Source of the DNA: Candidatus Azobacteroides sp.
GTDB taxonomy: Bacteria > Bacteroidota > Bacteroidia > Bacteroidales > Azobacteroidaceae
Reading direction: 5' to 3'
DNA length: 50,084 nt
Assembly (NCBI GenBank): GCA_009778655.1
Contig: WRFZ01000175.1
Span: forward strand, 1-50,084
Part shown: positions 2,730-46,644 of the stretch, in pieces
Layout: each line of letters starts with the position of its first letter
Position numbering within the stretch: position 1 is the stretch's first letter
The notes under the pieces: generated by a model
Told to the model about the DNA's origin: nothing
Databases searched by the model: none
The model's input: only the letters and a program-made list of their open reading frames with translations
Made by a program: the position numbers and the translations under genes

Positions 2730-3176
2730 TTACCACATGAACCGAACCCTGAATGTGTAATTGTAATGCGGCGGTTCATTTGTTGCGTGATCGCTGTATT
2801 TCAGAATAAAAGTAACAAAACCCGGGCGAAATTCGCAAGTGACCTGTTCCGTCCACATATAATCGGGATTAGACTCATCTATCCAATAATCATTGAAAGG
2901 TAAGGGGGTGATGTTTTCTTCATCCATGAACAAGAAGGCTTGCATGATACCGTTCTCATAGATATATTGAGTCAGATTCGATTCTCTAAACTCATAATAA
3001 AAATATTCGCCGGAATCATCTTTTCCGACACTCCAATCCCCTTTTTGTACGGTATAGTCTTGCGTATAAGAATCTACATACTCTTCTTCATAGTACTTAT
3101 CTCCTTCGCAAGAAGAAAGAAGTGCGATCATTACGAGAACAAAAACCGAAACTGTCCATTTTTTTAATATTACCAT
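2730..3176 (-). CDS. small putative lipoprotein, function unknown
   Basis: A 148-residue exported protein. Its N terminus has a basic start (MVILKKW), a hydrophobic stretch and a lipobox LLSSC with the cysteine at residue 23, so it should be lipidated and anchored to the cell envelope. The next residues, EGDKYYEEEYVDSY, are acidic, fitting Bacteroidota lipoproteins exported toward the outer membrane or surface. The remainder is rich in aromatic and charged residues and contains no motif I recognise. It is the last gene of a minus-strand run after the LPG-synthase-like gene and pepD. A 31-bp spacer with heptamer repeats separates it from pepD. Function cannot be assigned from sequence alone. 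Confidence 0.8.
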   Translation of the reverse strand: MVILKKWTVSVFVLVMIALLSSCEGDKYYEEEYVDSYTQDYTVQKGDWSVGKDDSGEYFYYEFRESNLTQYIYENGIMQAFLFMDEENITPLPFNDYWIDESNPDYMWTEQVTCEFRPGFVTFILKYSDHATNEPPHYNYTFRVRFMW

Positions 3177-3188
3177 AGTCTATAATGT

Positions 3189-3209
3189 TATAATTCATAA
3201 TTCATAATT
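3189..3209. repeat. heptanucleotide tandem repeat, 3 units
   Basis: Three consecutive 7-nt units (TATAATT, CATAATT, CATAATT) fill the spacer between pepD and the lipoprotein gene and overlap the pepD stop codon. The same heptamer recurs at 6633-6681 and, inverted, at 18751-18778. Confidence 0.7.
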
Positions 3210-4686
3210 ATTTTCTCGGCGCTTCTTTCAAAATATCAATCAGATAATTCCAAAACTTTTGAACGGAAGCAATTTCCAATCGTTCATCCGGCGAATGGGG
3301 AAATTGAATGGTAGGCCCGAACGAAACCGTATCCAATCCGGGAACATTCGATAAGATAATGCCGCATTCCAATCCGGCATGCATCACTTCCACTTTCGGA
3401 GTATATCCGCGTTGCTTTTCGAATACTTTTTTCATGATTTGCAAAATGGTTGAATCCGGATTCGGATTCCAACCCGGATACCCGTTTTCGCTACTTGCTT
3501 GATTGGCGCCGGCAATGATAAACAGGCTTTCGATGCTGCCGCAAATCGCGCATTTTTTTGTTTCGGATGAACTGCGCGCTAAAAATTTAACTTCAGCCGA
3601 TCGTTCGCCGACTTGTACAATCGCCATATTAACGGAAGTTTCAACCGTTCCGGGAATTTTCGCAAATCTATTGATAACTCCGTTCGGACAAGCCACAATC
3701 GCATGCGTCAGTTTTTGTTGTATGTCAACCGGAATCAGCCGGAGATGGTCTGTCGGAGAATCCTGTCTTTCGGCTTTCAATTCAACGGCATCTTCAATCC
3801 CGTCGAACTCTTCGATGAATACATCGCGATAATAATCAACCAGCGATAACAAATCTTGATAATTCGCTTCACCGTCCACCGCAATCGTTGCAAAAGCTTC
3901 ACGAGGAATTGCGTTCCGCAATGTTCCTCCTTGAACGGAAATCAAACGGGCGTTTTGTTTCAGCATCGCCTCTTTCAGCAATCGGAACATCAACTTATTG
4001 GCGTTGGCGCGTCCCAAGTGAATATCCACTCCGCTGTGACCGCCTTTAAGTCCCGTCAAGGAAATCCGTACAACAATCGCTTTTTGAAATGCAGCTGTTT
4101 CACTTTTGTATTGGAAAGAAACATTTACATCTTTGCCTCCGGCACATCCGATGTACAGTTCTCCGTCTGATTCGGAATCGAGATTCAGCATAATTTTACC
4201 GTCAATAAAGCCCGGACGGATAGCAAAAGCGCCATACATACCGGTTTCTTCATCGGTTGTAAACAAACCTTCCAACGGTCCGTGTTGTAAATCGGTTGCC
4301 GCCAAAACCGCCATTGTCGTAGCCGCTCCGATTCCGTTGTCGGCTCCCAAAGTAGTACCTTTGGCTTTTACCCAATCGCCGTCAATATACGCTTGAATTG
4401 CATCTTGCGTAAAATCGAATTTCAAGTCGGAATTGGCTTGAGGAACCATGTCAAGATGGGATTGCAAAATAATCGTTTGACGGTTTTCATAGCCCGGAGT
4501 CGCCGGTTTACGAATGCAAATATTGCCGGTTGCATCGCGAACGGTTTCCAAGCCTAAGCTTTTTCCGAAGTTTTCAACGAAAGCGGTTATCTTTTCCATG
4601 TGTCCCGAAGGACGAGGAATTTGTGTCAGAGCATAAAAATGTTTCCAAACATTGCCCGGTTTTAAATCTGAAATTGTGTTTGTCAT
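3208..4686 (-). CDS. pepD: aminoacyl-histidine dipeptidase (M20 family)
   Basis: A cytosolic metallodipeptidase that hydrolyses Xaa-His and other dipeptides. At 492 residues it matches PepD length. Dinuclear metal ligands are visible in family order: SHLDM (H77, D79), GADNGIG (D116), TTDEETG (E146/E147), LDSE near 174, and HAGLECG near the C terminus. The LDSE-x-IGCAGG region and the C-terminal HSPDERL are typical of the M20C subfamily. It starts 12 bp after the LPG-synthase-like gene on the same strand, so the two are probably co-transcribed. The C-terminal NYLIDILKEA is the normal family end. No defect seen. Confidence 0.93.
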   Translation of the reverse strand: MTNTISDLKPGNVWKHFYALTQIPRPSGHMEKITAFVENFGKSLGLETVRDATGNICIRKPATPGYENRQTIILQSHLDMVPQANSDLKFDFTQDAIQAYIDGDWVKAKGTTLGADNGIGAATTMAVLAATDLQHGPLEGLFTTDEETGMYGAFAIRPGFIDGKIMLNLDSESDGELYIGCAGGKDVNVSFQYKSETAAFQKAIVVRISLTGLKGGHSGVDIHLGRANANKLMFRLLKEAMLKQNARLISVQGGTLRNAIPREAFATIAVDGEANYQDLLSLVDYYRDVFIEEFDGIEDAVELKAERQDSPTDHLRLIPVDIQQKLTHAIVACPNGVINRFAKIPGTVETSVNMAIVQVGERSAEVKFLARSSSETKKCAICGSIESLFIIAGANQASSENGYPGWNPNPDSTILQIMKKVFEKQRGYTPKVEVMHAGLECGIILSNVPGLDTVSFGPTIQFPHSPDERLEIASVQKFWNYLIDILKEAPRK

Positions 4687-4698
4687 AATTATTATGTA

Positions 4699-5700
4699 TT
4701 ATTTATTTTTTTTATTGGCAATAGGCAACGCCATTATACCGAACAAACCGATTATGGCGGTAAAAACGATTGCTTGAATGGTATGTACACAAACAGCAAA
4801 AGCTCCCGCATCAACACTGCTCAATCCGAAGCCCGTCAATACGGCAATTACCGCAGCATGCCATGCTCCTATACCTGCTTGAACCGGAATGGTTACCGCG
4901 ATGCTGCTTATTCCGAAAGCAATCAATCCGCAATTCCATCCCAAGTTTTTCGTGAAAGGAAAAGCATAAAAACAGATGTAAAAGTACAAAAAATATCCTA
5001 ACCAAATTAAAAATGTATAAAAAATAAACATTCGGTTGGCTTTCATTTGACTGATACTTCGAATGCCTTTCCAGATATTCAGCAAGGTCATTTTGGTTTT
5101 TCGGATAAACGTATGTCTTTTTAAAAAGGTGAAGCTAAACCAAATAACAATCCCGATGATTGCAAGAAACACATACAACCAAACAGAAGTTGATATTGCA
5201 TGCAATTGATCAAATATTACCGGATTTTGAGCAAAAAACAGTTTGAAATAGGGAACGTTCAAAATAAACGCAATAACGACGATCAAACCGATCGGAAACA
5301 AATCAAACAACCGATCGGTAATCATGGTTCCGATCAGAGCCGTAAAAGGTATTTTCTCGTAACGACTGATCATCGTGCATCGCCAGATTTCTCCCACCCT
5401 CGGAATCGCTAAGTTTACTGCATAATTTCCCAGAAACGAATAAATCAAATTGGATGTTTTCGGACGATAACCCAAAGGATGTATCAATAATCCCCAACGA
5501 TAAGCCCGCATAATATTGGCAAATAGTCCGAAAGGAAGTGATAAGGCGATAATCCGGTAATTCACATCCTTCCGTACAATGAACATAATTTGATTAAAAG
5601 GCAACGTTCTGAATATCAGCCAAAAGACAAATAAACCAAAGGCCAGAGGAATAAATATTTTTAAAATTTGTATAGAAATGGGCTTAATCTTTTCGAACAT
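4699..5700 (-). CDS. lysylphosphatidylglycerol synthase-like integral membrane protein (LPG_synthase_TM family)
   Basis: A polytopic inner-membrane protein of 333 residues with about eight hydrophobic segments. It has the features of the LPG synthase transmembrane/flippase family, including the YRWGLLIHPLGY region after the second segment, a conserved PRVGEIWR and a late GIGAWHAAVIAVLTG helix. It lacks the soluble aminoacyl-transferase half of MprF, so a role in lipid or polyprenyl-lipid transport is possible but not shown. The frame is open to 5787, but I start at the ATG at 5700 (MFEKIKPISI) because a minus-strand promoter box lies at 5741-5748. It heads a run with pepD. Confidence 0.85.
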   Translation of the reverse strand: MFEKIKPISIQILKIFIPLAFGLFVFWLIFRTLPFNQIMFIVRKDVNYRIIALSLPFGLFANIMRAYRWGLLIHPLGYRPKTSNLIYSFLGNYAVNLAIPRVGEIWRCTMISRYEKIPFTALIGTMITDRLFDLFPIGLIVVIAFILNVPYFKLFFAQNPVIFDQLHAISTSVWLYVFLAIIGIVIWFSFTFLKRHTFIRKTKMTLLNIWKGIRSISQMKANRMFIFYTFLIWLGYFLYFYICFYAFPFTKNLGWNCGLIAFGISSIAVTIPVQAGIGAWHAAVIAVLTGFGLSSVDAGAFAVCVHTIQAIVFTAIIGLFGIMALPIANKKNK

Positions 5701-5724
5701 TCTTTTTGTTACATTATTTTTTAC

Positions 5725-5732
5725 TACTTTTG
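5725..5732 (+). promoter_or_regulatory. -7 promoter element for rsmA
   Basis: TACTTTTG fits TAnnTTTG and lies 55 nt before the GTG start of rsmA. It sits only 8 bp from the opposite-facing element for the LPG-synthase-like gene, so the two divergent promoters overlap. Confidence 0.55.
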
Positions 5733-5740
5733 TTTGTTTG

Positions 5741-5748
5741 CAAAGATA
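5741..5748 (-). promoter_or_regulatory. -7 promoter element for the LPG-synthase-like gene
   Basis: The minus strand reads TATCTTTG, an exact TAnnTTTG match. It is about 40 nt upstream of the ATG at 5700 and decides that start. Confidence 0.6.
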
Positions 5749-5787
5749 AGTAATTTTTTTAAGTATAGAGTAAACAGCTAAACGCAA

Positions 5788-6588
5788 GTGAGAAATAAAT
5801 TACGGTATCATAGGGAAGTTCGGCCCAAAAAATCAATAGGACAGCATTTTCTGAAAGATTTTTCCATAGCGGAACGAATTGCCGACGTTTTATCGCCTTT
5901 TCCCGGTTTGCCGGTTTTGGAAATCGGGCCGGGAACCGGCGTTTTAACGCAATTTCTTTTAAAAAATGAACGCGATTTGACGGTGGTGGAATTGGATAAG
6001 GAATCCGTAATTCATTTGAATAAACATTATCCGGCGTTGCAAGGTCGAATTATCGAAGCCGATTTTCTGAAATTGGATTTGAACGATTGGTTTCCCGGCC
6101 GTTTTTGCGTCATCGGTAATTATCCGTACAATATTTCCAGTCAAATTTTCTTCCGAATGCTGGATTTTAAAGACAAAGCGCTTTGTTGTGCCGGAATGTT
6201 GCAAAAAGAAATGGCTGAACGGATAGCGTCCCGACCGGGGAAAAAAGCATACGGAATTATTTCCGTCCTGCTGCAAGCTTGGTATGATATAGAATACCTT
6301 TTTACGGTAGAACCGGAGGTTTTTGATCCGCCGCCCAAAGTAAAATCGGCGGTTATTCGGATTACCCGAAATGCGCGAACCGTTTTGGGTTGCGATGAAG
6401 CTTTATTTAAATCAGTAGTTAAAACGGCTTTCAATCAACGGCGAAAGACCTTGCGAAATTCTTTGAAATCTTTATTGGGAAAAGATAATGCAATTTCCGC
6501 TTTACCGGTTTTCGATCGCCGTCCGGAGCAATTGTCTGTAGAAGAATTTATTGAGTTGACAAATAAAATAGTGACGAGTAACGAGTAA
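5788..6588 (+). CDS. rsmA: 16S rRNA (adenine1518-N6/adenine1519-N6)-dimethyltransferase
   Basis: RsmA/KsgA dimethylates two adjacent adenosines near the 3' end of 16S rRNA during small-subunit maturation, using S-adenosylmethionine. The 266-residue protein has VRPKKSIGQHFLKD at 11-24, the SAM-binding EIGPGTGVLT at 45-54, the acidic VELDK that ends motif II, and the catalytic NYPYNIS at 111-117. The C-terminal RNA-binding part includes FNQRRKTLRNSL. The only start near the expected N terminus is a GTG, giving about nine residues more than usual. The last four codons and the stop lie in a 7-bp tandem repeat, so the C-terminal VTSNE is probably repeat-derived. Confidence 0.95.
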   Translation: MRNKLRYHREVRPKKSIGQHFLKDFSIAERIADVLSPFPGLPVLEIGPGTGVLTQFLLKNERDLTVVELDKESVIHLNKHYPALQGRIIEADFLKLDLNDWFPGRFCVIGNYPYNISSQIFFRMLDFKDKALCCAGMLQKEMAERIASRPGKKAYGIISVLLQAWYDIEYLFTVEPEVFDPPPKVKSAVIRITRNARTVLGCDEALFKSVVKTAFNQRRKTLRNSLKSLLGKDNAISALPVFDRRPEQLSVEEFIELTNKIVTSNE

Positions 6589-6684: not shown

Positions 6685-8040
6685 ATGACCTACGATTTAG
6701 CAATTATCGGCGGAGGACCGGCCGGCTATACTGCGGCGGAATCAGCCGGAAAAAACGGGATACGAACGATTCTCTTTGAAAAAAACAACTTGGGCGGCGT
6801 TTGTCTGAACGAAGGATGTATCCCGACTAAAACGCTGCTTTATTCGGCAAAAGTGTATCATTCGGCGAAAGAATCCGTAAAATACGGTATTTCCTGTGAA
6901 AATATCACTTACGATTTATCTAAAATTATCGCAAGGAAAAACAAAGTCGTCCGAAAATTAGTTGCCGGTATCCGTGCAAAAATGGCGGAAGCCGGCGTAG
7001 AGGTTGTAACCGGAACTGCGATTATTCAAGCGCAAGGAGAGGCGGAAAAAGCCAAAGGCGAATTTTCGATCGAATGCAACGGACAAATTTACGCAGCCCG
7101 AAAATTAGTATTATGTACCGGCTCGGAAACCATTATTCCTCCGATTCCGGGCTTGAAAGAAACCGATTTTTGGACAAGTCGCGAAGCCTTAGACAGTAAA
7201 GAAATTCCGGAGTCGCTGCTGATTATCGGCGGCGGAGTGATCGGCATCGAATTTGCCTCTTTCTTTAACACTTTAGGTAGTAAAGTAATTGTAGTTGAAA
7301 TGTTAAATGAAATACTGCCCGGAATGGATCAATCTTTGTCCGGTTTTTTACGGAACGAATTGTCGAAAAAAGGAATTGAATTTCATACGGGCGCTAAAGT
7401 GGTATCGGTAAATAACCGGCAAGTAGAAATCGAAAAAAACGGCGAAATACAACGAATAGAAGCATCGAAAATTCTGTTAAGCGTCGGTCGCAAACCGGTA
7501 TTAAGCGGTTTCGGATTGGAAAATCTCGCTTTGGAAACCCGGAAAACCGGTTTGAAAGTGAATGAATATATGCAGACTTCACAACCGAATGCGTATGCTT
7601 GCGGCGATATTACCGGTTTTTCTCTGTTAGCGCATACGGCTGTCCGTGAAGCGGAAGTGGCGGTAGCGCATTTGTCGGGGAAAAACGAAAAAATGTCGTA
7701 CAAAGCTATTCCGGGCGTTGTTTACACCAATCCCGAAATTGCCGGAGTCGGACAAACGGAAGAAACGCTGCAAGCGGAAAATATTCCTTATATCGTCAAG
7801 CAACTTCCCATGGCCTATTCCGGTCGCTTTGTCGCTGAAAATGAGCAAGGGAACGGCATTTGTAAAATTCTGGAAGGAACGGACGGAAGCATTCTCGGCG
7901 TTCATATACTGGGAAATCCTGCTTCGGAACTGATTGTTATTGCCGGAATAGCCATGGAACGCGGAATGAAAGCGGAAGAACTGAAAACGATGATTTTTCC
8001 GCATCCTACCGTCGGCGAAATAATCAAAGAAACGTTGTAA
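6685..8040 (+). CDS. lpdA: dihydrolipoyl dehydrogenase (E3)
   Basis: A cytosolic flavoprotein that reoxidises dihydrolipoamide in 2-oxoacid dehydrogenase or glycine-cleavage complexes, passing electrons to NAD+. The 451-residue protein has the FAD-binding IIGGGPAGYTAAE at 7-19, and the redox-active disulfide in GGVCLNEGCIPTK (C40, C45). It also has an NAD-binding IIGGGVIGIEFASF near 178 and YACGDITG. The catalytic pair HPTVGE (H440, E445) lies at the C terminus. No E1/E2 genes are nearby, so the partner complex cannot be told. It could in principle be a related pyridine nucleotide-disulfide oxidoreductase, but every E3 landmark is present. Confidence 0.93.
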   Translation: MTYDLAIIGGGPAGYTAAESAGKNGIRTILFEKNNLGGVCLNEGCIPTKTLLYSAKVYHSAKESVKYGISCENITYDLSKIIARKNKVVRKLVAGIRAKMAEAGVEVVTGTAIIQAQGEAEKAKGEFSIECNGQIYAARKLVLCTGSETIIPPIPGLKETDFWTSREALDSKEIPESLLIIGGGVIGIEFASFFNTLGSKVIVVEMLNEILPGMDQSLSGFLRNELSKKGIEFHTGAKVVSVNNRQVEIEKNGEIQRIEASKILLSVGRKPVLSGFGLENLALETRKTGLKVNEYMQTSQPNAYACGDITGFSLLAHTAVREAEVAVAHLSGKNEKMSYKAIPGVVYTNPEIAGVGQTEETLQAENIPYIVKQLPMAYSGRFVAENEQGNGICKILEGTDGSILGVHILGNPASELIVIAGIAMERGMKAEELKTMIFPHPTVGEIIKETL

Positions 8041-8048
8041 ATCAGTAA

Positions 8049-8135
8049 AATTATACCGTTCCTTTGTGCCTGTTTTTTCCAAATTATACCGTTCCTTTAT
8101 GCAAAAATTCTATTAATTATACCGTTCTTTTGTAC
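8049..8135. repeat. three 21-bp direct repeats with exact 33-bp period
   Basis: Copies at 8049-8069, 8082-8102 and 8115-8135 share AATTATACCGTTC followed by CTTTGTGC or a close variant. Starts are 33 bp apart and the spacers are 12 bp of unrelated sequence. The array occupies the space between the lpdA stop and the -7 box of the AAA ATPase gene. The third copy carries a TTTG where a -33 element would be expected (23 bp before the -7 box). Confidence 0.85.
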
Positions 8136-8155
8136 TAAAATTAAAAAAATAATTG

Positions 8156-8163
8156 TATCTTTG
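8156..8163 (+). promoter_or_regulatory. -7 promoter element for the AAA ATPase gene
   Basis: TATCTTTG matches TAnnTTTG and lies 20 nt before the ATG at 8184. TTTG at 8129-8132, inside the third direct repeat, may be the -33 element. Confidence 0.65.
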
Positions 8164-8183
8164 CTTGAAAATATTTTGCAGAT

Positions 8184-9518
8184 ATGATACAGCGGAGAGC
8201 AATAGAATTTTTACTTCAATGGAAAGAGCGTTCAGACCGCAAACCATTAGTAGTCAGGGGAGCGAGGCAAGTAGGAAAAACCACTTTGGTAAAAGAATTT
8301 GCAAAAAACTACGATGTTTTTTTGCATTTGAATCTCGAAAAAACAGACGATTGCAGTCTGTTTGAACAATACGATGATGTACACGAACTGATAAAGGCTG
8401 TTTTTTTACAAAAAAGTCGGGTAAACAGGGGTAGTGTTTTACTCTTTATTGATGAGATTCAAAATTCAAAAAAAGCGGTTGCCCTGTTGCGTTATTTCTA
8501 TGAAGAAGCAAATTATATTCATGTGATTACGGCAGGTTCGTTACTTGAAACGGTAATGGATGTACGTAAAATTTCGTTTCCTGTCGGTCGAGTTGAATAT
8601 TTGGCTGTTCGTCCCTGTTCGTTTCTTGAGTTTTTGGATGGGACGGGCAACGGTTTTGATGCAGATTTAGTCTTGAATTTGAATGCTTCGCCGGTTCATA
8701 ACAAAATTATAAAACATTTCAACGATTATACGCTCGTTGGCGGAATGCCTGCGATTGTTTCAAAATATGCCGAAAACCAAGATATTCTTACACTTAATCG
8801 AGTATATAATTCACTTTTTCAATCGTATAAAGACGATGTGGAAAAATATACGAAAAGTGTCGGTACAATAAAAATAATCCGTGAAATTCTTGAAACAGGC
8901 TGGGCGCAAGCAGGTGGTATTATTACATTTGAAAAATTCGGCGGTACAAACTTTTCGTCAAAAGAGATGAGTTTGGCATTCCAAACCATACAGAAAGCAA
9001 TGCTTCTGGAGTTGGTTTTCCCTACGTCGAGTACACAAATGCCGTTGATACCCAATCACAGACAGCGACCTAAACTGATTTGGCTTGATACCGGATTGGT
9101 AAATTACGGAGTAGGGATTCAAAAAGAAGTTTTTTCGACAAAAGATATTCAAGATGTATGGCGAGGAAGAATAGCCGAACAAATTACGGCGCAGGAACTT
9201 TTGACGCTTGACGATAGTTTGCTTACCAAACGGATTTTTTGGAAACGCGATAAACACGGCTCCGAAGCCGAAGTAGATTTTGTGTATAAATATGAGAGTT
9301 TGGCAATCCCGGTAGAAGTAAAATCAGGGCATAATTCAAAACTGAAATCGCTGCATTTGTTTATGGATTCCGCACCGCACAATTGGGCTGTTCGGGTGTG
9401 GTCAAATCCGTTTTCGGTTGATGAGGTCAGTACTCCAAACGGTAAAAAATTTAAACTAATCAATCTGCCGTTTTATTATGTCGGCGTATTGAATAAAATA
9501 TTAAAAAGCGTATTATGA
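8184..9518 (+). CDS. AAA_14/DUF4143 family ATP-binding protein
   Basis: A 444-residue protein of the multi-copy prokaryotic AAA_14-plus-DUF4143 family; its cellular role is not established. The Walker A motif is GARQVGKTT (26-34), and Walker B is VLLFIDEIQ (85-93). TAGSLLE near 118 fits sensor 1, and FPVGRVEYLAVRPCSFLEFL follows. The C-terminal domain holds EAEVDFVYK and later PVEVKSG, a D...EVK pattern like PD-(D/E)xK nuclease folds, common in DUF4143. Codon choice and the AT-rich sequence differ from lpdA upstream, fitting an accessory gene. It overlaps the next, convergent gene by 6 bp at the 3' ends. Confidence 0.85.
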   Translation: MIQRRAIEFLLQWKERSDRKPLVVRGARQVGKTTLVKEFAKNYDVFLHLNLEKTDDCSLFEQYDDVHELIKAVFLQKSRVNRGSVLLFIDEIQNSKKAVALLRYFYEEANYIHVITAGSLLETVMDVRKISFPVGRVEYLAVRPCSFLEFLDGTGNGFDADLVLNLNASPVHNKIIKHFNDYTLVGGMPAIVSKYAENQDILTLNRVYNSLFQSYKDDVEKYTKSVGTIKIIREILETGWAQAGGIITFEKFGGTNFSSKEMSLAFQTIQKAMLLELVFPTSSTQMPLIPNHRQRPKLIWLDTGLVNYGVGIQKEVFSTKDIQDVWRGRIAEQITAQELLTLDDSLLTKRIFWKRDKHGSEAEVDFVYKYESLAIPVEVKSGHNSKLKSLHLFMDSAPHNWAVRVWSNPFSVDEVSTPNGKKFKLINLPFYYVGVLNKILKSVL

Positions 9519-36397: not shown

Positions 36398-37501
36398 ATG
36401 AAAGCGACGATATTATTTTTATTAATTATTTGGACAGGAATGACGTTTGCGCAAACTGCAAAACAGTATAACGGCATAGAAATGAAATATGATTCACTGG
36501 GGGCCTTTAGCGAAGATTTTGCAAAAGTGAGATTGAATAATAAATGGGGTTTTATTGATTTCAACGGAAAAGAAGTTATTTCGCCGAAATATGACGATGT
36601 GCAAGATTTTAATGAAAATCATGCTGCGGTGAAATTAAACGGCAAATACGGCCTCATTGATAAAAGCGGAAAAGAAATCACACCCTGCAAATACGATTAT
36701 GTATGGACATTTTGGAATGGCCGTTCAATAGTTAAATTAAACGGCAAGTACGGTTTTGTTGACGGAAACGGGGAAGAAGTTATTCCGTTGAAATATGATA
36801 AGGCCGGATATTTTACGGATAATCGAGCATTAGTTGAATTAAACGGTAAATACGGCTTTATAGACCCGAAGGGAAATGAAATTATTCCGATTAAATACGA
36901 CGATGCCGCACAAATGGCTTTCAGCTCTTTCGTCGAAGGTCTTACTTGGGTTAAATTAAACGGCAAATACGGTTTTATTGATGAAAACGGAGAAGACGTA
37001 GTTCCTTTTAAATACGACGGCGCAGGAAATTTCAGCAATGATCGTGCGTGGATTAAATTAAATGATAAATACGGGTTCATTGATAAAACCGGAAAAGAAA
37101 TTACTCCCGTGAAATATGACGAGGTAAAAGATTTTCAAGAAAATCGGGCGATAGTAAAATTAAACGCTCTATACGGTTTCATTGATAAAACCGGAAAAGA
37201 AGTGATACCGATTAAATTTGACAAGGTAAATCGGTTTAATGGTATGAACAGTACGATTGTCGTATTCAACGGAAAATATATACTTATTGACAAGAACGGG
37301 AAAATTCTTTCCAAGAAATACGATTATGCCGACGACGGTTTTGCCTGCAATTGCATAAGAGTAAGATTAGGTAATAAGTGGGGCTTTATCGGTGAAAACG
37401 GAGAAGAAATTATTCCCTTAAAATACGATGATGCGGAAATGTTTCGCAATTGTCACGCATCGGTAACATTGAACGGTAAAAAAATGAATATAAACCGATA
37501 G
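36398..37501 (+). CDS. exported WG-repeat protein
   Basis: A 367-residue protein with a signal peptide (about 1-18, ending FAQ) and about nine WG (KWG/YGFID) repeats covering almost the full mature length. Typical units are WGFIDFNGKEVISPKYDDV, YGLIDKSGKEITPCKYDYV and YGFIDENGEDVVPFKYDGA. Each ends with a KYD turn; the seventh and eighth are more degenerate. WG repeats probably form a beta-propeller or superhelix used for binding; no enzyme motif is visible. It follows the barrel protein by 21 bp and is probably co-transcribed with it. Its stop faces the exporter stop, 9 bp away. Confidence 0.88.
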   Translation: MKATILFLLIIWTGMTFAQTAKQYNGIEMKYDSLGAFSEDFAKVRLNNKWGFIDFNGKEVISPKYDDVQDFNENHAAVKLNGKYGLIDKSGKEITPCKYDYVWTFWNGRSIVKLNGKYGFVDGNGEEVIPLKYDKAGYFTDNRALVELNGKYGFIDPKGNEIIPIKYDDAAQMAFSSFVEGLTWVKLNGKYGFIDENGEDVVPFKYDGAGNFSNDRAWIKLNDKYGFIDKTGKEITPVKYDEVKDFQENRAIVKLNALYGFIDKTGKEVIPIKFDKVNRFNGMNSTIVVFNGKYILIDKNGKILSKKYDYADDGFACNCIRVRLGNKWGFIGENGEEIIPLKYDDAEMFRNCHASVTLNGKKMNINR

Positions 37502-37510
37502 AAAAAAATC

Positions 37511-39718
37511 TCAATTTCCCAACTCCAATTGATTTCTTATCAAATGATAATACTCTCCTTTATTGGCTATCAGTTGAGCATGAGCGCCTTGTTCTACTAA
37601 TTGTCCGTTTTTCAAAACGATAATTTGATCGGCATTCTTTACGGTTGAAAGCCGGTGGGCAATGATTAGAACCGTTTTCCCGACAAAAAATTCCTGTAAA
37701 TTGGTGTGAATAATTTTTTCGTTTTCCGCATCAAGCGCACTCGTAGCTTCATCGAGAAAAATAAATTGAGGATTTTTGTATAAAGCTCTTGATATAAGGA
37801 TCCGTTGAGTCTCGCCACCGCTTAACTGAATACCGGAATTACCGATTTTTGTATCGAACTTCATGGGTAAATTGCCGATAAAGTCTAAAATATTAGCCAA
37901 TTTGCAAACATGAATTAACCGGTCAAAATCTATTTCATCGTCTGACAGAGCAATATTTTCGGCGATTGTTCCGCTGAAAATTTTTCCGTCTTGCAATACA
38001 ATGCCGCAATTACTTCTCCATTCAGATGCAAAAATATCATTAATGTTTTTGTCGTTCAAATAAATACTTCCATGTTCAATGGAATAGTATGCCAAAAGCA
38101 ATTTCAGTAAAGTGGTTTTTCCGCTCCCGCTTGCTCCCACAATGGCTGTGACCGTATTTTTTTTAATTGAAAAACCGATATTTTGTAATACATAGGGACT
38201 GAATTTACCGGGGTACTTGAACGATAAATTTCGAATATCTATCCGATTAATCGGGGTATTCTTGATGTGATCCCTTTTCCCGGCATCTTCGTCTTCGTTA
38301 TGATGAATTTCGCCAATACGTTCGTTTGCAATCTTTGCATCTTGAGCATCTTTTACGAAATAAGTCAAATTATTAACAGGTACAAGCAATTGGCCGATAA
38401 CGTATGAAACGCTTAATAAAACGCCTAACGACATTTGTCCGTTAATAATGAAATAGGCACAAATAGCGATAGAAATCAGTTCCTTGAATTTCGATAAGAA
38501 ATTGACGCCTATCAATTGATACATATTCAAGAACAAAGACCGTAATTCTAATTCATTTAATCTTTCTTGCAATTTAGTAATACGGCTGATGGTTTTATCC
38601 TGAGCATTGTTTATTTTAATCTCAGGCATATTCATTATAAATTCGTAAGTAATGTTGTTGTTTTCCGATTGTTTAAGAAATTTGGCATATTCCAATACCG
38701 CTCTTTTACTTAGAAACAAAAACGCCCATACTATCGACAGAGCCGTTAGTATCAAATAGACAGAAAATATGATTATATTGTAATACAAAAGAATTGAACC
38801 GAAAATCAAAATATTCAATATGCTCAACAATAATTCAATCCCTTTCCATGTGACAAATTGTTGAATGGTGTTTTGGTCTTCGATACGCTGTAATGTTTCG
38901 GTATTTAGGCGTGTATCAAAGAAATTTACAGGCAATTTCATTAATTTTTTCAGCAACGTTTGTTTTAAATCAACGCTCAATATAAAATTAAACTTCGTTA
39001 GTATTAAATTGCTGAAAAAATTGGAGATAAAGTAAGAAATAAACAAAACAAACTGTGCTAAAAGAAAATATAGGACTATCCCGATTTGTTTTGAACTTAT
39101 ACCATCATCAATAACTCGCTGAAAAATAAAAGGGATTGCCCAATTTGCAGCCAATCCGATAATTATTAAAAATAGTGCAAGCAGGTATCGTAATTTGTTT
39201 TTTTGTAAAAAGCTCCTTATTTGCGCATAGATCGTAAAAGATGACCACGACTTTTTACCGGCATCCGGTAAATATGTTTTTTCAAAATTTTCATCAGGTT
39301 GTAAAACGATGGCAATACCTTTGGGATTTGCTCCTTTCCAAGCAGATTCAAAATCGTCTTTGTGAAGTTTTACACGTCCGTAGGCAGGGTCGGCGAGATG
39401 GAATAAATCATCACTTTTTTGTTCGGTTACACGCTCGTAAACCAAAAAATGTCCTTGTTGCCAGTACAAAATTACGGGAAACGGAAACGTTTGCAATTCT
39501 TCCGTAGTTAATTTCAAAACATTTGCGCTAAAACCTATTTTGGAAGCATTGTCTGCAATATCCTGCACCGTGATGCCAATTCTCGTAAATTCGAACAGCG
39601 CTTTAACTTGCCGTAAGTGATATTTTTTCTTGAAAAAACTTGCAATCATGGCAAGACACGCCGCACCGCAATCGGTACTTGTAAGTTGATGATAAAAAAT
39701 CATTTTATCTTGTTTCAT
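37511..39718 (-). CDS. C39-peptidase ABC exporter (PCAT) for a GG-leader peptide
   Basis: A 735-residue exporter that cuts a double-glycine leader and exports the peptide. The C39 domain (about 1-130) retains its catalytic residues: Cys in STDCGAAC (C17), His in GHFLVYE (H90) and Asp in LADPAYG (D110). A six-helix membrane domain follows (about 155-450). The nucleotide-binding domain has Walker A GASGSGKTT, signature LSGGETQR, Walker B FIFLDEATSALD and IAHRLSTV. The GTG two codons upstream is a less likely start than the ATG at 39718. It overlaps the radical SAM gene by 14 bp. No HlyD-type adaptor gene is nearby, so the route across the outer membrane is unclear. Confidence 0.92.
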   Translation of the reverse strand: MKQDKMIFYHQLTSTDCGAACLAMIASFFKKKYHLRQVKALFEFTRIGITVQDIADNASKIGFSANVLKLTTEELQTFPFPVILYWQQGHFLVYERVTEQKSDDLFHLADPAYGRVKLHKDDFESAWKGANPKGIAIVLQPDENFEKTYLPDAGKKSWSSFTIYAQIRSFLQKNKLRYLLALFLIIIGLAANWAIPFIFQRVIDDGISSKQIGIVLYFLLAQFVLFISYFISNFFSNLILTKFNFILSVDLKQTLLKKLMKLPVNFFDTRLNTETLQRIEDQNTIQQFVTWKGIELLLSILNILIFGSILLYYNIIIFSVYLILTALSIVWAFLFLSKRAVLEYAKFLKQSENNNITYEFIMNMPEIKINNAQDKTISRITKLQERLNELELRSLFLNMYQLIGVNFLSKFKELISIAICAYFIINGQMSLGVLLSVSYVIGQLLVPVNNLTYFVKDAQDAKIANERIGEIHHNEDEDAGKRDHIKNTPINRIDIRNLSFKYPGKFSPYVLQNIGFSIKKNTVTAIVGASGSGKTTLLKLLLAYYSIEHGSIYLNDKNINDIFASEWRSNCGIVLQDGKIFSGTIAENIALSDDEIDFDRLIHVCKLANILDFIGNLPMKFDTKIGNSGIQLSGGETQRILISRALYKNPQFIFLDEATSALDAENEKIIHTNLQEFFVGKTVLIIAHRLSTVKNADQIIVLKNGQLVEQGAHAQLIANKGEYYHLIRNQLELGN

Positions 39719-41024
39719 CTTCACGCACCATTAATTCAACCATTGCTTTTATTACATTGTCTTTTTCTTTTTCGTCAAAAGAGTGAATACAGAAATCACG
39801 TTTACCTAAATTTTCTAATGCTATTTGTGAACAAGCTCCATTACAGATGGGTAATAATCGGCAACTTAAGCAAGGCTGATTATGAAATTTAGCTTTCATT
39901 CTACGCTCAAGCGAATTGTTTTCCCAAACAATTTCACCCTCATCGGTTAAAAAACCTTCTCTATTCTCTGTCTTAAAATCTCTTGCAGTGCATTTAAATA
40001 CATCGCCGTTGTAATTAATGACTGCGCTGTTTCGTTTATCGGCATAACATGACCCTCTGACCGTATCGTTAAGGTATTTGCTGCTTTTTGCATTGAATCC
40101 TTTTTTTCTTATCATTTCTACATTTCTATTCACAATAATTTCTATATCATCCGGTTTGGTATTTTGCCAAACCCTGTGAAAATCAATTAACAGATGTTTT
40201 TTTGCCGGTTCTTTTTCTATAATTAACAAATCATCTGCAATTTTGTAGGTATCTTTTATGTTTTCATCCGTGAAATTGATTCTGACTCTAACAAACATTT
40301 CATTTTCCACCAATTTTTTAATGTTATCTATAATCGTAGAATACGAACCTTTTGTTTGAGTGGCAAAACGAACTTTATCATGATTTTCACGATAACCGTC
40401 CAGCGTAATATGAAAATGCGGTTTTAGCTGCTTTTCATTAAAAAAGTTTATAAATCTATCGTTTATCAAATATCCGTTTGTTGTAAATCCAATAGTGAAT
40501 TGTTTATTGAAGCTTTTCATTATTGGAACGAAGTTATTAATAATAGGAATTACTGTTTTTTCAAAGTACAGCAATGGTTCTCCGCCAAAGAAAGCAAGAT
40601 TAAATTCTTCTATATCGTCTTCTTGCGCTATTTTTAAAATGAGTTTATTAATCCTGTTTATGATGTCTGTATTCATTTTTGATTGTTTTATATGCGTTTC
40701 ATAACAGTACCAGCACTTAAAATTACAATTTATGGTAGGATTAATTGTTAAATAAAATGTGTTTTTATTCTCATCAATAGCGTAAACTATTTTTTTTACC
40801 TCCTCTACTTCGTTAATATCATCTTTAACAAGAAAATTATTTTCTAATAAATAATTATAGAAATCGGGATGTATATTGATTAAATTGTCTATTCCACTTT
40901 GCGTTTCGCGAACCAAAATATTTTTAAGTTCCGGGTCTAGAAAAATCATTTTTTTTTCAAAGGCATTATATAATGCATATTTGTCTCTATATGGAATAAT
41001 AGAATTATATTGACTGTATTTCAT
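39705..41024 (-). CDS. radical SAM/SPASM peptide maturase
   Basis: A 439-residue radical SAM enzyme likely to modify the small peptide encoded upstream. The N terminus (about 1-85) resembles the precursor-recognition regions of these maturases. The radical SAM motif is CNFKCWYC (C100, C104, C107), followed by FFGGEPLLY and TTNGYL. The C-terminal SPASM region has GSCYADKRNSAVINYNGDVFKC and CLSCRLLPICNGACS plus a final FCIHSF, enough cysteines for auxiliary 4Fe-4S clusters. The ATG at 41024 is preferred to a TTG five codons upstream. The gene is very AT-rich. Thioether (Cys to alpha-carbon) chemistry is a reasonable guess from the Cys-rich target but unproven. Confidence 0.9.
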   Translation of the reverse strand: MKYSQYNSIIPYRDKYALYNAFEKKMIFLDPELKNILVRETQSGIDNLINIHPDFYNYLLENNFLVKDDINEVEEVKKIVYAIDENKNTFYLTINPTINCNFKCWYCYETHIKQSKMNTDIINRINKLILKIAQEDDIEEFNLAFFGGEPLLYFEKTVIPIINNFVPIMKSFNKQFTIGFTTNGYLINDRFINFFNEKQLKPHFHITLDGYRENHDKVRFATQTKGSYSTIIDNIKKLVENEMFVRVRINFTDENIKDTYKIADDLLIIEKEPAKKHLLIDFHRVWQNTKPDDIEIIVNRNVEMIRKKGFNAKSSKYLNDTVRGSCYADKRNSAVINYNGDVFKCTARDFKTENREGFLTDEGEIVWENNSLERRMKAKFHNQPCLSCRLLPICNGACSQIALENLGKRDFCIHSFDEKEKDNVIKAMVELMVREDETR

Positions 41025-41094
41025 AATGATAAAATTCAATTTATATTTTTCGCCAAAACATCAAGGAAATATTTAACTTTATTTTTTAAATAAA

Positions 41095-41217
41095 GCTGTC
41101 TTAAAATCCTGTCATTGTTTGTGAAACTTAGCGAATATCAGCTATCTCCTTATAATTAAAGGTCGGTTTTTGGGGGAATGGCGGGTCAAACATACAATGA
41201 CAGGATTTTAAGACAGC
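41095..41217. repeat. 24-bp perfect inverted repeat with 75-bp loop
   Basis: The 24-bp left arm at 41095-41118 starts GCTGTCTTAAAATCC and contains CCTGTCATTG. It is repeated exactly inverted at 41194-41217. The element lies between the precursor peptide gene and the maturase gene. The arm start (GCTGTCTTAAAA) resembles ends of some Bacteroidota insertion sequences. The 10-mer CCTGTCATTG also forms the stem at 31613-31650. Confidence 0.85.
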
Positions 41218-41310
41218 CTCTCAATCATAACAATAATTTCTTCTACACTACTCTATGTTTATTGGAGCATATAGTTTTTTTATTAAGCCGTTCCACCACC
41301 CAATTTTTTA

Positions 41311-41541
41311 TCACAGCGTACTTTTTACAGCAGTACTAGAACAACCACATCCCGCAACCGCATTAATCGTACAACCACATCCTGCAACTATATTGTTGAC
41401 GACAGGAGAACTCTTTCCTCCGAAAACTAAATTTTCGTCATAAACGGGAGAAAAACCACCTTTTAATAAGACATTCCCCTTTGAATCTAAAACTTCAAAT
41501 TTTGAAATGTCAAAATTTGTTTTTTTAATCTCTTTTTTCAT
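41311..41541 (-). CDS. GG-leader precursor peptide with two VAGCGC repeats
   Basis: A 76-residue peptide, the likely substrate of the adjacent maturase and exporter. The leader (1-29) ends in a double-glycine site: LDSKGNVLLKGG, with leucines at -12 and -4 relative to G29, as C39 peptidases expect. A second Gly-Gly occurs at 41-42 (VFGG). The core ends with VAGCGC-TINA-VAGCGC-SS, so the four cysteines C55, C57, C65 and C67 form two identical six-residue repeats. The DNA repeat is also visible. The peptide fits the Bacteroidales GG-leader natural-product precursor type as I recall it. The modification and bioactivity are unknown. Confidence 0.85.
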   Translation of the reverse strand: MKKEIKKTNFDISKFEVLDSKGNVLLKGGFSPVYDENLVFGGKSSPVVNNIVAGCGCTINAVAGCGCSSTAVKSTL

Positions 41542-41633
41542 CTTAAAAACATTTTAATTTATTAATCCATTAATTATTTATAAAAAAACTTTTTTTATAT
41601 TGCGCACTACGAAATACTCTCACTTCTATAATA

Positions 41634-41641
41634 CAAAAATA
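41634..41641 (-). promoter_or_regulatory. -7 promoter element for the precursor peptide operon
   Basis: The minus strand reads TATTTTTG, matching TAnnTTTG, with a 93-nt leader before the ATG at 41541. It is back to back with the element at 41647-41654. Confidence 0.5.
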
Positions 41642-41646
41642 ATTCT

Positions 41647-41654
41647 TACCTTTG
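41647..41654 (+). promoter_or_regulatory. -7 promoter element for the divergent XRE regulator
   Basis: TACCTTTG matches the consensus, 121 nt before the ATG at 41776. TTGTACAA (41659-41666) and TTGTATAA (41693-41700) lie downstream and could bind the regulator. Confidence 0.45.
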
Positions 41655-41775: not shown

Positions 41776-42162
41776 ATGGCATCACTGGGTACGAAATTAT
41801 TGAATTTAAGACATGAACGGCGGTTTTCCCAAACAGAAATTGCCGATATTTTAGGCATTTCGCAAAATGCGTACAATAAATGGGAAGCCGACAAATGCAT
41901 GCCTTCTGCCGTTCACTTGTCTAAAATTTCCCAATTTTATAAAATTGATATTATGAAGTTATTAGATAATAATGAGAAACCCATTCAGATAAATAATGAC
42001 ATAAACGGCGAAAATACTGTCATCGCCAATACAAATTCTACTATCCACATTCAATCTTCTACATCATTAATGGAACAAGCGCTTCAGATACAAGAACAAA
42101 TTTCAAAATTGTCGGAATTACAACTTCATTTAATAGAAGAATTATTGAAGAAAAACCAATGA
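41776..42162 (+). CDS. XRE-family transcriptional regulator beside the peptide cluster
   Basis: A 128-residue DNA-binding protein. The N-terminal helix-turn-helix (about 5-62) has LLNLRHERRFSQTEIADILGI and SQNAYNKWEADKCMPS, typical of the XRE/Cro group. The middle is polar and Asn/Thr-rich, and the C-terminal 30 residues form a likely coiled coil (EQALQIQEQISKLSELQLHL), probably for dimerisation. It is transcribed away from the precursor peptide, with facing promoters, so regulation of the peptide genes is plausible but not shown. Its last 43 bp are duplicated at 44333-44376 downstream of the HipT-like gene. Confidence 0.85.
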   Translation: MASLGTKLLNLRHERRFSQTEIADILGISQNAYNKWEADKCMPSAVHLSKISQFYKIDIMKLLDNNEKPIQINNDINGENTVIANTNSTIHIQSSTSLMEQALQIQEQISKLSELQLHLIEELLKKNQ

Positions 42163-42755: not shown

Positions 42756-42971
42756 ATGAGTTGTAGTTTATCGTCGTTTGTAAAAGGAAAACGCAAGCAG
42801 TTTGGATTGACACAACAGGATTTATCTGAGAAATCGGGTGTGGGACTGCGTTTCGTTCGCGAACTTGAACAAGGTAAAAACACTTTGCGAATGGATAAAG
42901 TAAATCAAGTGTTAGCGCTTTTTGGGGCTGAACTTTCGGCTACGGCAATCAATAAAAATAATGAATTATGA
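42756..42971 (+). CDS. HipB-like XRE antitoxin/regulator
   Basis: A 71-residue helix-turn-helix protein: FVKGKRKQFGLTQQDLSEKS, then GVGLRFVRELEQGKNTLRM, the pattern of HipB/y4mF-type regulators in HipA modules. In such systems the protein binds operators as a dimer and represses its own operon. Its promoter carries three operator-like 16-bp sites. It lies 79 bp upstream of the HipS-like gene with the same orientation. In known three-gene HipBST systems HipB enhances neutralisation while HipS is the main antitoxin. Confidence 0.85.
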   Translation: MSCSLSSFVKGKRKQFGLTQQDLSEKSGVGLRFVRELEQGKNTLRMDKVNQVLALFGAELSATAINKNNEL

Positions 42972-43050
42972 AACCCTCATGCGAAGATTGCACCCAAGCG
43001 CAAAACATGTTGCGGGTTCCATATGACCTTTAAAAACAAGTTATGTACAT

Positions 43051-43380
43051 ATGAAACAGGCAAAAGTGTTTTTCCAGGAAAATTTTGCAGGCGTTTTGAC
43101 TGAAGATGAAAATGGCTATACTTTTGTGTACAATGTCGATTATTTGCAAAAAAAGGATACCGGAGCCATTAGTTTAACGTTGCCTTTGAGTGAAAAACCA
43201 TACAATTCACAAGTTTTGTTTCCGTTTTTTGACGGACTGATTCCTGAGGGTTGGCTTTTGGAGATTGCCGAACAGAGTTGGAAAATCAATTCGCGCGACC
43301 GAATGTCGCTCTTGCTTGCTTGTTGCAAAGACTGTATCGGTGCAGTTAGTATTGTCCCTTTGATAAAAGAAGAAATATGA
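43051..43380 (+). CDS. HipS-like protein (HipA N-terminal subdomain)
   Basis: A 109-residue protein matching the N-subdomain 1 of HipA kinases (couple_hipA): FFQENFAGVLTEDENGYTFV, then YNVDYLQKK, LPLSEKPY and FPFFDGLIPEGWLLEIAEQS. In E. coli HipBST the equivalent separate HipS protein is the antitoxin that neutralises HipT. Here the order HipB-HipS-HipT and the 4-bp overlap with the kinase gene are the same. The reading frame ends cleanly with its own stop and the kinase has its own ATG, so this is a split gene and not a frameshifted hipA. Antitoxin activity is inferred from the arrangement. Confidence 0.82.
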   Translation: MKQAKVFFQENFAGVLTEDENGYTFVYNVDYLQKKDTGAISLTLPLSEKPYNSQVLFPFFDGLIPEGWLLEIAEQSWKINSRDRMSLLLACCKDCIGAVSIVPLIKEEI

Positions 43381-44327
43381 AATGCCTTTTTTGTTATAAA
43401 GAATTGAATAGTAGTGAAATTGATTTTCACACAGTTTGTTCAAAAAAGTTTTTTGGGACTTCGACACCGCCGACATTGCCATATACTCGCTCAAAAATCA
43501 AAGAATTAGCCGAACAAATTATCCGTTCGCAAACCACAGTTACAGGCGTTCAGCCTAAACTTTCGCTTGATATTGAAAGGATAAATAACAATAGTCGTTT
43601 CACCATCGTTGGCTTGTGGGGAAAATATATTTTGAAACCACAAACAGAACAATACAGCCATCTTCCTGACAATGAAGATTTAACAATGCGTTTGGCTGAA
43701 GTTGCAAAAATAAATACTGTGCCCCATTCACTTATTCGTTTTGCTGATGGCGAACTCTGTTATATCACAAAACGTATTGACCGCACAAAAAACGGCGTAA
43801 AACTGCCTATGGAAGATTTTTGTCAATTGACTGAGCGACTTACCGAACACAAATATCACGGTTCTCACGAACAAATAGCAAAGGCAATATTGAAATTTTC
43901 GACTGTGCCAAAACTTGATTTAGTGAATTTTTGGGAAATTATAATCTTCTGTTTTCTGGTAGGAAATGCCGATATGCACTTGAAAAATTTTTCTCTTTAC
44001 AGTCCTCCTTCGAGAGATATAGGGAGCTTTGATTTTCAATTAACGCCTGCATATGATTTACTTTCCACAGTTTTGGTTATACCCGAAGATAAAGAAGAAC
44101 TTGCACTTACGTTGAACGGTAAAAAAAACAAATTAACTCGTAAAGATTTTGAAACTGCCGCACTAAATTCAGGTTTGGAACAAAGAGTGATTGAAAATAT
44201 ATTTGTAAAATTTCAAAAAACAGTCCCTAAGTGGGATTTGTTGATAGACAATTCATTTTTATCATACGAAATGAAAGAAAATTTCAAGAACCTTATACAA
44301 AAAAGAAAGGACAGAATATTGACGTAA
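43377..44327 (+). CDS. HipT-like Ser/Thr kinase toxin (HipA C-terminal domain)
   Basis: A 316-residue HipA-family kinase without the N-subdomain 1. The first 25 residues have CLFC and HTVC, a possible zinc-binding knuckle. A Gly-rich loop TVTGVQPKLSL (54-64) is followed by an ATP-binding Lys in YILKPQ (K87). The catalytic loop is GNADMHLKNFS (D199, N204) and AYDLLS supplies the metal-binding Asp (D227). HipA phosphorylates GltX and HipT phosphorylates TrpS; the target here is unknown. The loop has T-V-T where E. coli HipT has S-I-S autophosphorylation sites. It ends 5 bp before direct repeat copy B. Confidence 0.87.
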   Translation: MKCLFCYKELNSSEIDFHTVCSKKFFGTSTPPTLPYTRSKIKELAEQIIRSQTTVTGVQPKLSLDIERINNNSRFTIVGLWGKYILKPQTEQYSHLPDNEDLTMRLAEVAKINTVPHSLIRFADGELCYITKRIDRTKNGVKLPMEDFCQLTERLTEHKYHGSHEQIAKAILKFSTVPKLDLVNFWEIIIFCFLVGNADMHLKNFSLYSPPSRDIGSFDFQLTPAYDLLSTVLVIPEDKEELALTLNGKKNKLTRKDFETAALNSGLEQRVIENIFVKFQKTVPKWDLLIDNSFLSYEMKENFKNLIQKRKDRILT

Positions 44328-45835: not shown

Positions 45836-46444
45836 TTATGGCATAATGAATCTTGAATCAAATTCTCGCGGGATGAAAAAACCTTTAATACAATTCGGAT
45901 TACGAACACAAATTTGAATATGATTTTTTTCTTTAAATCCGGCATTCGGATATAAGTCGTCCCCTTCCCAAAATACACCTCGTACAGAATCAAATTCCTG
46001 CTTATTGTTATTCTTGTTGAATGTATGAACGGATTCTATTACAGCGCAGTCGAGATTACGAAGTAAAAGGTCAAATGAGCCTCCGACCGGTCTGTTCATT
46101 GGAATTTCAATACCGCGAATTTCATAAGTTTCTATTAATAAGGAATAAAACTCTTTTATTAAGACAAGATAAACGGAATCCAATAAATCAAAACAATATC
46201 CCAAATCAATAAAAGCGCCTAAAACGGCAGGTTTTGTTATTTTACCCGGATCTCTTTTTTGTTTTTCTTCCGCAAAATGCTTGGCTCGTAATATGTTGTT
46301 CTCCCAAAAGTAAAAACCGTTTCCTAACCAATCGTAATCATTATTGCTTTTCTTCATAAAAGATTTCCCCGATACAATTTCATCTCTTACTGATTCATCG
46401 CAACCGTGAAATCCTATGACAATATTTTGACATTTAGAATACAT
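45836..46444 (-). CDS. putative ADP-ribosyltransferase-like toxin of a two-gene module
   Basis: A 202-residue protein with the block IGFHGCDESVRDEIVSG (10-26), then NDYDWLGNGFYFWENN (35-50). Such FHG...YFWE patterns recall ADP-ribosyltransferase-like folds (DUF3990-type and relatives), with a possible H13 and the aromatic YFWE strand. Further conserved-looking pieces are LDCAVIESVH, GVFWEGDDLYPNAGF and IQICVRNPNCIKGFF. I remember relatives widely spread in bacteria without a named function. It overlaps by one base the 66-residue gene upstream, the usual order of antitoxin then toxin. Enzyme activity and target are inference. Confidence 0.7.
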   Translation of the reverse strand: MYSKCQNIVIGFHGCDESVRDEIVSGKSFMKKSNNDYDWLGNGFYFWENNILRAKHFAEEKQKRDPGKITKPAVLGAFIDLGYCFDLLDSVYLVLIKEFYSLLIETYEIRGIEIPMNRPVGGSFDLLLRNLDCAVIESVHTFNKNNNKQEFDSVRGVFWEGDDLYPNAGFKEKNHIQICVRNPNCIKGFFIPREFDSRFIMP

Positions 46445-46644
46445 TATTTTTCATTATCACAGCCCCACCGATAAGAGACTCTGGACTTGTCTTCTCTATA
46501 AGGAGGGGTAAGTTTTCCATTTTTGATAATACCTACCTGTTCCAGAAATTTTTCGGAAGCTTCTTTACTTGATGTCACGAGGGCTTTGTATGCTCTTATT
46601 TCTTCAATAGTAATTTCATTTATCTTTATTGTTTTTTTTTTCAT
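46444..46644 (-). CDS. small protein paired with the ART-like gene (putative antitoxin)
   Basis: A 66-residue, mostly helical, Lys/Glu-rich protein: KINEITIEEIRAYKALVTSS, then KEASEKFLEQVGIIKNGKL and TPPYRE. The ending 'GI.KNGKLTPPYR' resembles short antitoxins that precede toxins. Its stop and the next start overlap (TAATG-like, sharing base 46444), so the two are translationally linked. It has a -7 promoter box of its own. No DNA-binding domain is evident, so it may act by protein contact only. The role is inferred from size, order and coupling. Confidence 0.65.
   Translation of the reverse strand: MKKKTIKINEITIEEIRAYKALVTSSKEASEKFLEQVGIIKNGKLTPPYREDKSRVSYRWGCDNEK

Follow-up and report, generated by a model that had tools for sequence, protein, structure and literature searches.

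A predicted peptide-modification cassette in a Candidatus Azobacteroides contig and its genomic linkage to a TonB-dependent-transporter-like outer-membrane barrel

How small modified peptides cross the outer membrane of Gram-negative bacteria when their gene clusters contain no HlyD/TolC pair is poorly known. This question is raised by a stretch of 50,084 nucleotides from Candidatus Azobacteroides sp. (assembly GCA_009778655.1, contig WRFZ01000175.1; hereafter the window). An original prediction, made from the sequence alone, described positions 37511 to 41654 as a compact cluster for a ribosomally synthesised and post-translationally modified peptide (RiPP), containing three genes: a 76-residue precursor, a radical S-adenosylmethionine (SAM)/SPASM maturase and a C39-peptidase ATP-binding cassette (ABC) exporter. 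The coordinates and translations of this gene row agree with that description, including the 14-bp overlap between the maturase and exporter genes (39705-39718). Transcription runs along the minus strand from the precursor to the maturase and then the exporter, and the upper end of the span lies 113 bases ahead of the start codon of the precursor gene. Judged from their sequences, the three core genes form an intact RiPP cassette in which all catalytic and cluster-binding residues are present. The prediction also stated that no outer-membrane adaptor is encoded; no HlyD or TolC gene is indeed seen in the cluster, but an adjacent gene encoding an outer-membrane barrel was overlooked, and related loci show that it belongs to the cassette.

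One scan of the genome collection gave 80 related loci (designated by L numbers), nearly all of them in Bacteroidota, and the architecture of the cassette is preserved across them. Comparison of these loci shows that the three-gene reading is too narrow: the barrel is kept with the cassette and so, in the closest relatives, are a helix-turn-helix (HTH) regulator and a WG-repeat protein. Clustering of the proteins encoded around the loci shows an outer-membrane protein of about 800 residues at 70 of the 80 (in 62 of these 70 its gene lies upstream in the same orientation), and a homologue of the window barrel is found in 59 of the 64 loci with at least 5 kb of flank on both sides. The chance expectation, from counts in 34 genomes, is about 0.024 barrels per 13-kb stretch; this is a minimum estimate, since scoring was limited to the top 30 candidates of each genome. 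The window barrel is 70% identical to that of L006, and the other barrel copies in the window genome are distant (24-29% identity over most of the length, plus one short match). In 18 of 32 genomes, no other protein of the whole genome matches the window barrel as well as the barrel of the cluster does. A close barrel (E <= 1e-120) is present in only two of 393 genomes of the order, the window genome and one matching L006, both of which carry a close maturase at the same locus; at this threshold, none of the 393 shows an orphan close barrel without the cassette. Distances between maturases, exporters and barrels are correlated (r 0.63-0.79; 0 of 999 permutations as high). Furthermore, the barrel is on different sides of the cassette in L003 and L006, which shows that the gene set stays together through rearrangement. 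The barrel is strongly linked genomically to the cassette and is its fourth standard component.

The reading that we favour, with moderate confidence, is a horizontally mobile RiPP cassette of Bacteroidota that would produce a cross-linked, C39-cleaved and exported peptide together with a dedicated TonB-dependent receptor. Several observations weigh against it: the correlated distances partly reflect shared species history; in the window, the barrel gene is encoded on the opposite strand and is separated from the cassette by the WG-repeat gene; five well-flanked loci contain no barrel, and in two of them, L029 and L040, its place is taken by a secreted protein that weakly matches CarbopepD_reg; the maturase belongs to no curated family from which its chemistry could be deduced; and the peptide cores are very variable, with up to ten copies per locus (L033), which is unusual for a metallophore. 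The opposite strand and the five loci would also fit a plain three-gene RiPP cluster with the barrel as an accidental neighbour, an explanation that is very improbable: the barrel is present at 59 of 64 loci where about 2% would be expected, in 18 of 32 genomes the best match overall lies inside the cluster, and the linkage has withstood rearrangement in L003 and L006. Secreted proteins of about 235 residues are encoded directly after the exporter in L029 (9583-10296), L040 (9559-10257) and L033 (9652-10365), and only the first two show the weak CarbopepD_reg match.

The window barrel shows Pfam OMP_b-brl_3 above the cut-off and a carboxypeptidase-regulatory-like domain, and Pfam Plug below the cut-off (above it in L006). 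Its structural model (predicted local distance difference test score, pLDDT, 84; predicted template modelling score, pTM, 0.72) contains the regulatory-like domain (about residues 22-98), a disordered segment (103-113), a plug and the barrel. The disordered sequence LQEVTIVAKK, between the N-terminal domain and the plug, is TonB-box-like, and its L.EV pattern is common, though not universal. Foldseek matches include siderophore and haem receptors at full length, such as PhuR, PfeA and FhuE over 700+ columns, as well as FhuA with microcin J25, and the protein is accordingly modelled as a TonB-dependent transporter with a plug. Members of this siderophore/haem-receptor fold family are TonB-driven importers.

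Both directions of transport have a precedent. The TonB-dependent transporter Oar is needed for PopC secretion (PMC6434023), and the RiPP methanobactin is re-imported through a TonB-dependent transporter specific to it, MbnT (PMC9601215). The modification chemistry of methanobactin operons differs from that predicted for the window cassette. An exit role, in which the C39 exporter would deliver the peptide to the periplasm and the barrel would secrete it in place of HlyD/TolC, would agree with Oar, with the usual position of the barrel gene immediately before the precursor genes in the same orientation and with the lack of visible HlyD/TolC genes in the window cluster and most loci. This role is nonetheless doubtful, since the fold is that of importers with a plug, genes for TolC and adaptors may lie outside the locus, and eight related loci encode an HlyD-like protein yet keep the barrel. 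The latter mildly favours a receptor role for the barrel and disfavours it as a plain HlyD substitute, although the test is weak because no TolC is seen in those eight loci. The same loci (L055, L060, L063, L065, L066, L074, L079 and L082) contain, besides the gene for the HlyD-like protein, an additional open reading frame (ORF) of about 290 residues (no Pfam match in L060) and a lantibiotic-dehydratase-like gene, and are possible radical SAM/lanthipeptide hybrids.

The predicted elements of the precursor are all borne out: Gly-Gly pairs at residues 28-29 and 41-42, and VAGCGC units at 52-57 and 62-67 (C55, C57, C65 and C67) with TINA between them. The 18-base DNA units encoding both VAGCGC copies are identical at 17 of 18 positions, and the single difference is synonymous. 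The precursor shows no match in Pfam or in NCBIfam (E up to 1), which lends no support to membership of the GG-Bacteroidales family (TIGR04149), and no second copy was found elsewhere in the window genome. Candidate precursors with a common leader are present at 72 of the 80 related loci, more than chance association would give; they number 145 peptides, a few of which may be spurious small ORFs. Their leaders prefer E at -14 and -10, L at -4 and G at -2 and -1, followed by F and S, and the motif LxGG/F(S), with the cut at the slash, is near-universal. Only 74 of the 145 have a second Gly-Gly ahead of the first Cys, and the precursors of L029, L033 and L040 are not among them. The conserved leader and the restricted second pair together support a predicted cut after G29, where the prediction had placed it while noting that two pairs left the site open; cleavage at G41-G42 is judged improbable for the window precursor. 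In a distant subgroup (e.g. L048, L053, L057 and L064), where KIKGG sites are mainly found, the second pair has a canonical LSxxQLxKIKGG-like form and may be the true cut site.

The cores of the closest relatives follow the pattern CxC-T/S-x-(x-G-C)-N-x-V-A-G-C-x-C (alignment A4), whose middle Cys is absent from the window precursor, L007 and L043. Of the two VAGCGC units only the second is conserved, which makes the exact duplication a local trait of the window precursor; this alignment rules out VAGCGC as a conserved repeat, and the motif does not organise the family as first proposed. From the first Cys on, the 145 cores contain 16% Cys, the commonest residue there, 14% Gly, 13% Asn and 10% Thr, and about 2.5% each of Asp and Glu; residues 43-76 of the window precursor contain neither Asp nor Glu. 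L033 shows ten paralogous precursors in tandem (3051-5905) with near-identical leaders and differing cores. In L006, the precursor (5570-5749) ends shortly after its CGC, though the maturase, exporter and barrel look intact.

The maturase shows the SAM-cluster motif CNFKCWYC, with CX3CX2C present. In 60 aligned homologues, C100, C104 and C107 and C326, C345, C385, C388, C394 and C398 are invariant and C412 is present in 59, which corresponds to CX3CX2C plus seven SPASM Cys; Pfam SPASM is below the cut-off for the window protein. Its model (pLDDT 90.6, pTM 0.88) shows CteB as the best match in the PDB (E 3.9e-16, TM 0.70), followed by TigE and SuiB, with sulfatase maturases also among the fold matches. 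The substrate of CteB is a clostridial SCIFF peptide. The fold of this SCIFF ranthipeptide maturase (PDB 5WGG, 5WHY) is alike over the full length, including the N-terminal domain and the SPASM region, whereas identity is only 18% and CteB is not known to have an outer-membrane partner. Within this match, residues 7-61 of the model (three strands plus helices) would form a small N-terminal domain resembling a RiPP recognition element (RRE). None of the NCBIfam family cut-offs shown is reached: the highest scores, 125-157 bits, belong to maturases of Cys-rich peptides (TIGR04463, CefB, Clo7bot and geopeptide) and are far below their cut-offs of 525, 600, 600 and 400, respectively.

Similarity to the PapB family (NF047865) is significant at 118 bits, but falls well short of the cut-off of 340. 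PapB joins Cys to Asp or Glu in Cys-X3-Asp/Glu motifs (PMC9413430), and such links are unlikely in this family because its cores are poor in Asp and Glu, which residues 43-76 of the window precursor lack altogether. The best guess is that Cys is linked to Thr, as by CteB, or to Asn, and thioether formation is an inference from fold and family. A different radical SAM change (epimerisation, a C-C link or a cyclopropane), leaving the Cys free or metal-binding, would be in line with NCBIfam scores that are all below cut-off and with TigE, SuiB and sulfatase maturases among the fold matches; it is unlikely, as the best fold match is a Cys-thioether enzyme, the maturases that score best by profile act on Cys-rich peptides and Cys is the commonest core residue after the first Cys.

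The exporter shows Peptidase_C39, ABC_membrane and ABC_tran, all well above the Pfam cut-offs, and no variation is seen among 60 homologues at its Gln11, Cys17, His90, Asp110, Walker A Lys, Walker B Asp-Glu and H-loop His. PCAT1-type C39 ABC exporters (PDB 4RY2 and others) match it over nearly the full length (324 bits) and share the C39 catalytic residues; the difference is that the host here has an outer membrane and the cluster no adaptor gene. A modified, leader-cleaved and exported peptide, as originally predicted, is supported as the probable product by the adjacency of the SPASM maturase and the C39 exporter. In L003 the exporter is split into two ORFs (7301-9514).

Taken in order, the HTH protein would control the divergent precursor gene, and the RRE-like domain of the maturase would bind the precursor leader. 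With SAM and two SPASM iron-sulphur clusters, the maturase would form thioethers between core Cys sulphurs and residues close by, of which Thr and Asn are the most likely. From what is known of the exporter family, the C39 domain would cut after G28-G29 and the ABC part would move the product into the periplasm. The outer-membrane TonB-dependent transporter, most likely a dedicated receptor, would then recognise or take back the secreted peptide or its bound cargo. The product may instead be a bacteriocin, with the barrel as an immunity part or as the entry receptor on kin and the varied cores as signs of an arms race. Variable cores, up to ten precursors per locus, a patchy distribution and the known role of TonB-dependent transporters as bacteriocin receptors, with FhuA bound to microcin J25 among the fold matches, all suit this alternative; no recognised immunity gene is present, and it is a possible explanation on the unlikely side.

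The closest relatives of the cassette (65-75% identity) are in metagenome-assembled genomes (MAGs) named Prevotellaceae and Candidatus Azobacteroides; the latter name is used for termite-gut symbionts, and from their names these MAGs are apparently of termite-gut origin. Further hosts belong to Tenacibaculum, Flavobacterium, Chryseobacterium, Mucilaginibacter, Pedobacter and Chitinophaga. HTH homologues are present in L003, L004, L006, L007, L008 and L043 (58-71% by tblastn in most, in two pieces in L003), and WG-repeat homologues in L004, L005, L007 and L008. The maturase is sporadic: at E up to 1e-30 it is found in 10 of 120 relatives, and the best of the others is only 38-40% identical, whereas a genome of another family carries it at 74% identity, which suggests spread of the cassette by horizontal transfer. 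L049, a MAG labelled Limnohabitans (not Bacteroidota), contains the whole cassette with a maturase of 55% identity, through mis-binning or transfer.

Table 1. Features of the cassette and its surroundings in the window.
Feature	Coordinates	Strand	Evidence and remarks
RiPP precursor, 76 aa	41541-41311	minus	leader 1-29, core 30-76 with C55, C57, C65, C67; leader motif common to 145 candidate precursors, alignment A4
Radical SAM/SPASM maturase, 439 aa	41024-39705	minus	Pfam Radical_SAM; conserved Fe-S Cys; model match to CteB
C39 peptidase/ABC exporter, 735 aa	39718-37511	minus	Pfam Peptidase_C39, ABC_membrane, ABC_tran; PCAT1 match
TonB-dependent-transporter-like outer-membrane barrel, ~800 aa	33974-36376, likely start 33980	plus	Pfam OMP_b-brl_3; locus comparison; model and fold search
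WG-repeat protein, signal-peptide-like N-terminus	36398-37501	plus	Pfam WG_beta_rep; tblastn 49-53% in relatives
HTH (Cro/C1-type) regulator, divergent from precursor gene	41776-42162	plus	Pfam HTH_19/HTH_3; tblastn in relatives
Palindromic element between precursor and maturase, like a miniature inverted-repeat transposable element (MITE)	41095-41217		inverted arms 28 nt; diverged genome copies; RNA fold z -8.45

The MITE-like element, with diverged copies on four other contigs of the window genome, is probably an insertion and not part of the ancestral cassette, and it could damp read-through into the maturase gene. Beyond the HTH regulator, the region 42756-44327 contains a small HTH gene and, after it, ORFs of 109 and 316 residues, which by their sequences look like a HipBA-type toxin-antitoxin system, and a pair of minus-strand ORFs of 202 and 66 residues (45836-46644) is arranged like a two-gene module, without a Pfam match.

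A survey of Bacteroidales RiPPs describes SPASM and PCAT clusters, GG precursors and one maturase grouped with CteB (PMC10352776). The radical SAM/SPASM enzymes, GG precursors and PCAT exporters are common to those clusters and the window cassette; no TonB-dependent partner appears in the passages of the survey that were consulted, and its BGC8 enzyme differs from the window maturase in the SAM-cluster motif. Flavobacteriaceae, Tenacibaculum and Aquimarina are rich in predicted RiPPs (PMC11118758). A search of open-licence papers found none describing the window cassette or its barrel; the RiPP class is known, and the window family and its linked transporter appear undescribed in the literature searched. 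Since the family reaches no curated NCBIfam cut-off shown, annotation may overlook it. A wider and more tentative proposal is that cross-linked peptides are found across the phylum, each forming a ligand/receptor pair with a TonB-dependent transporter of its own, whether as a signal, a metallophore or a weapon, and that their maturases constitute a new SPASM subfamily. Cultured hosts are available among the related loci in Tenacibaculum, Flavobacterium, Chryseobacterium, Mucilaginibacter and Pedobacter. The RiPPs of Bacteroidota are largely uncharacterised, and the transporter-linked cassette offers a genetic handle on them and on their passage across the outer membrane.

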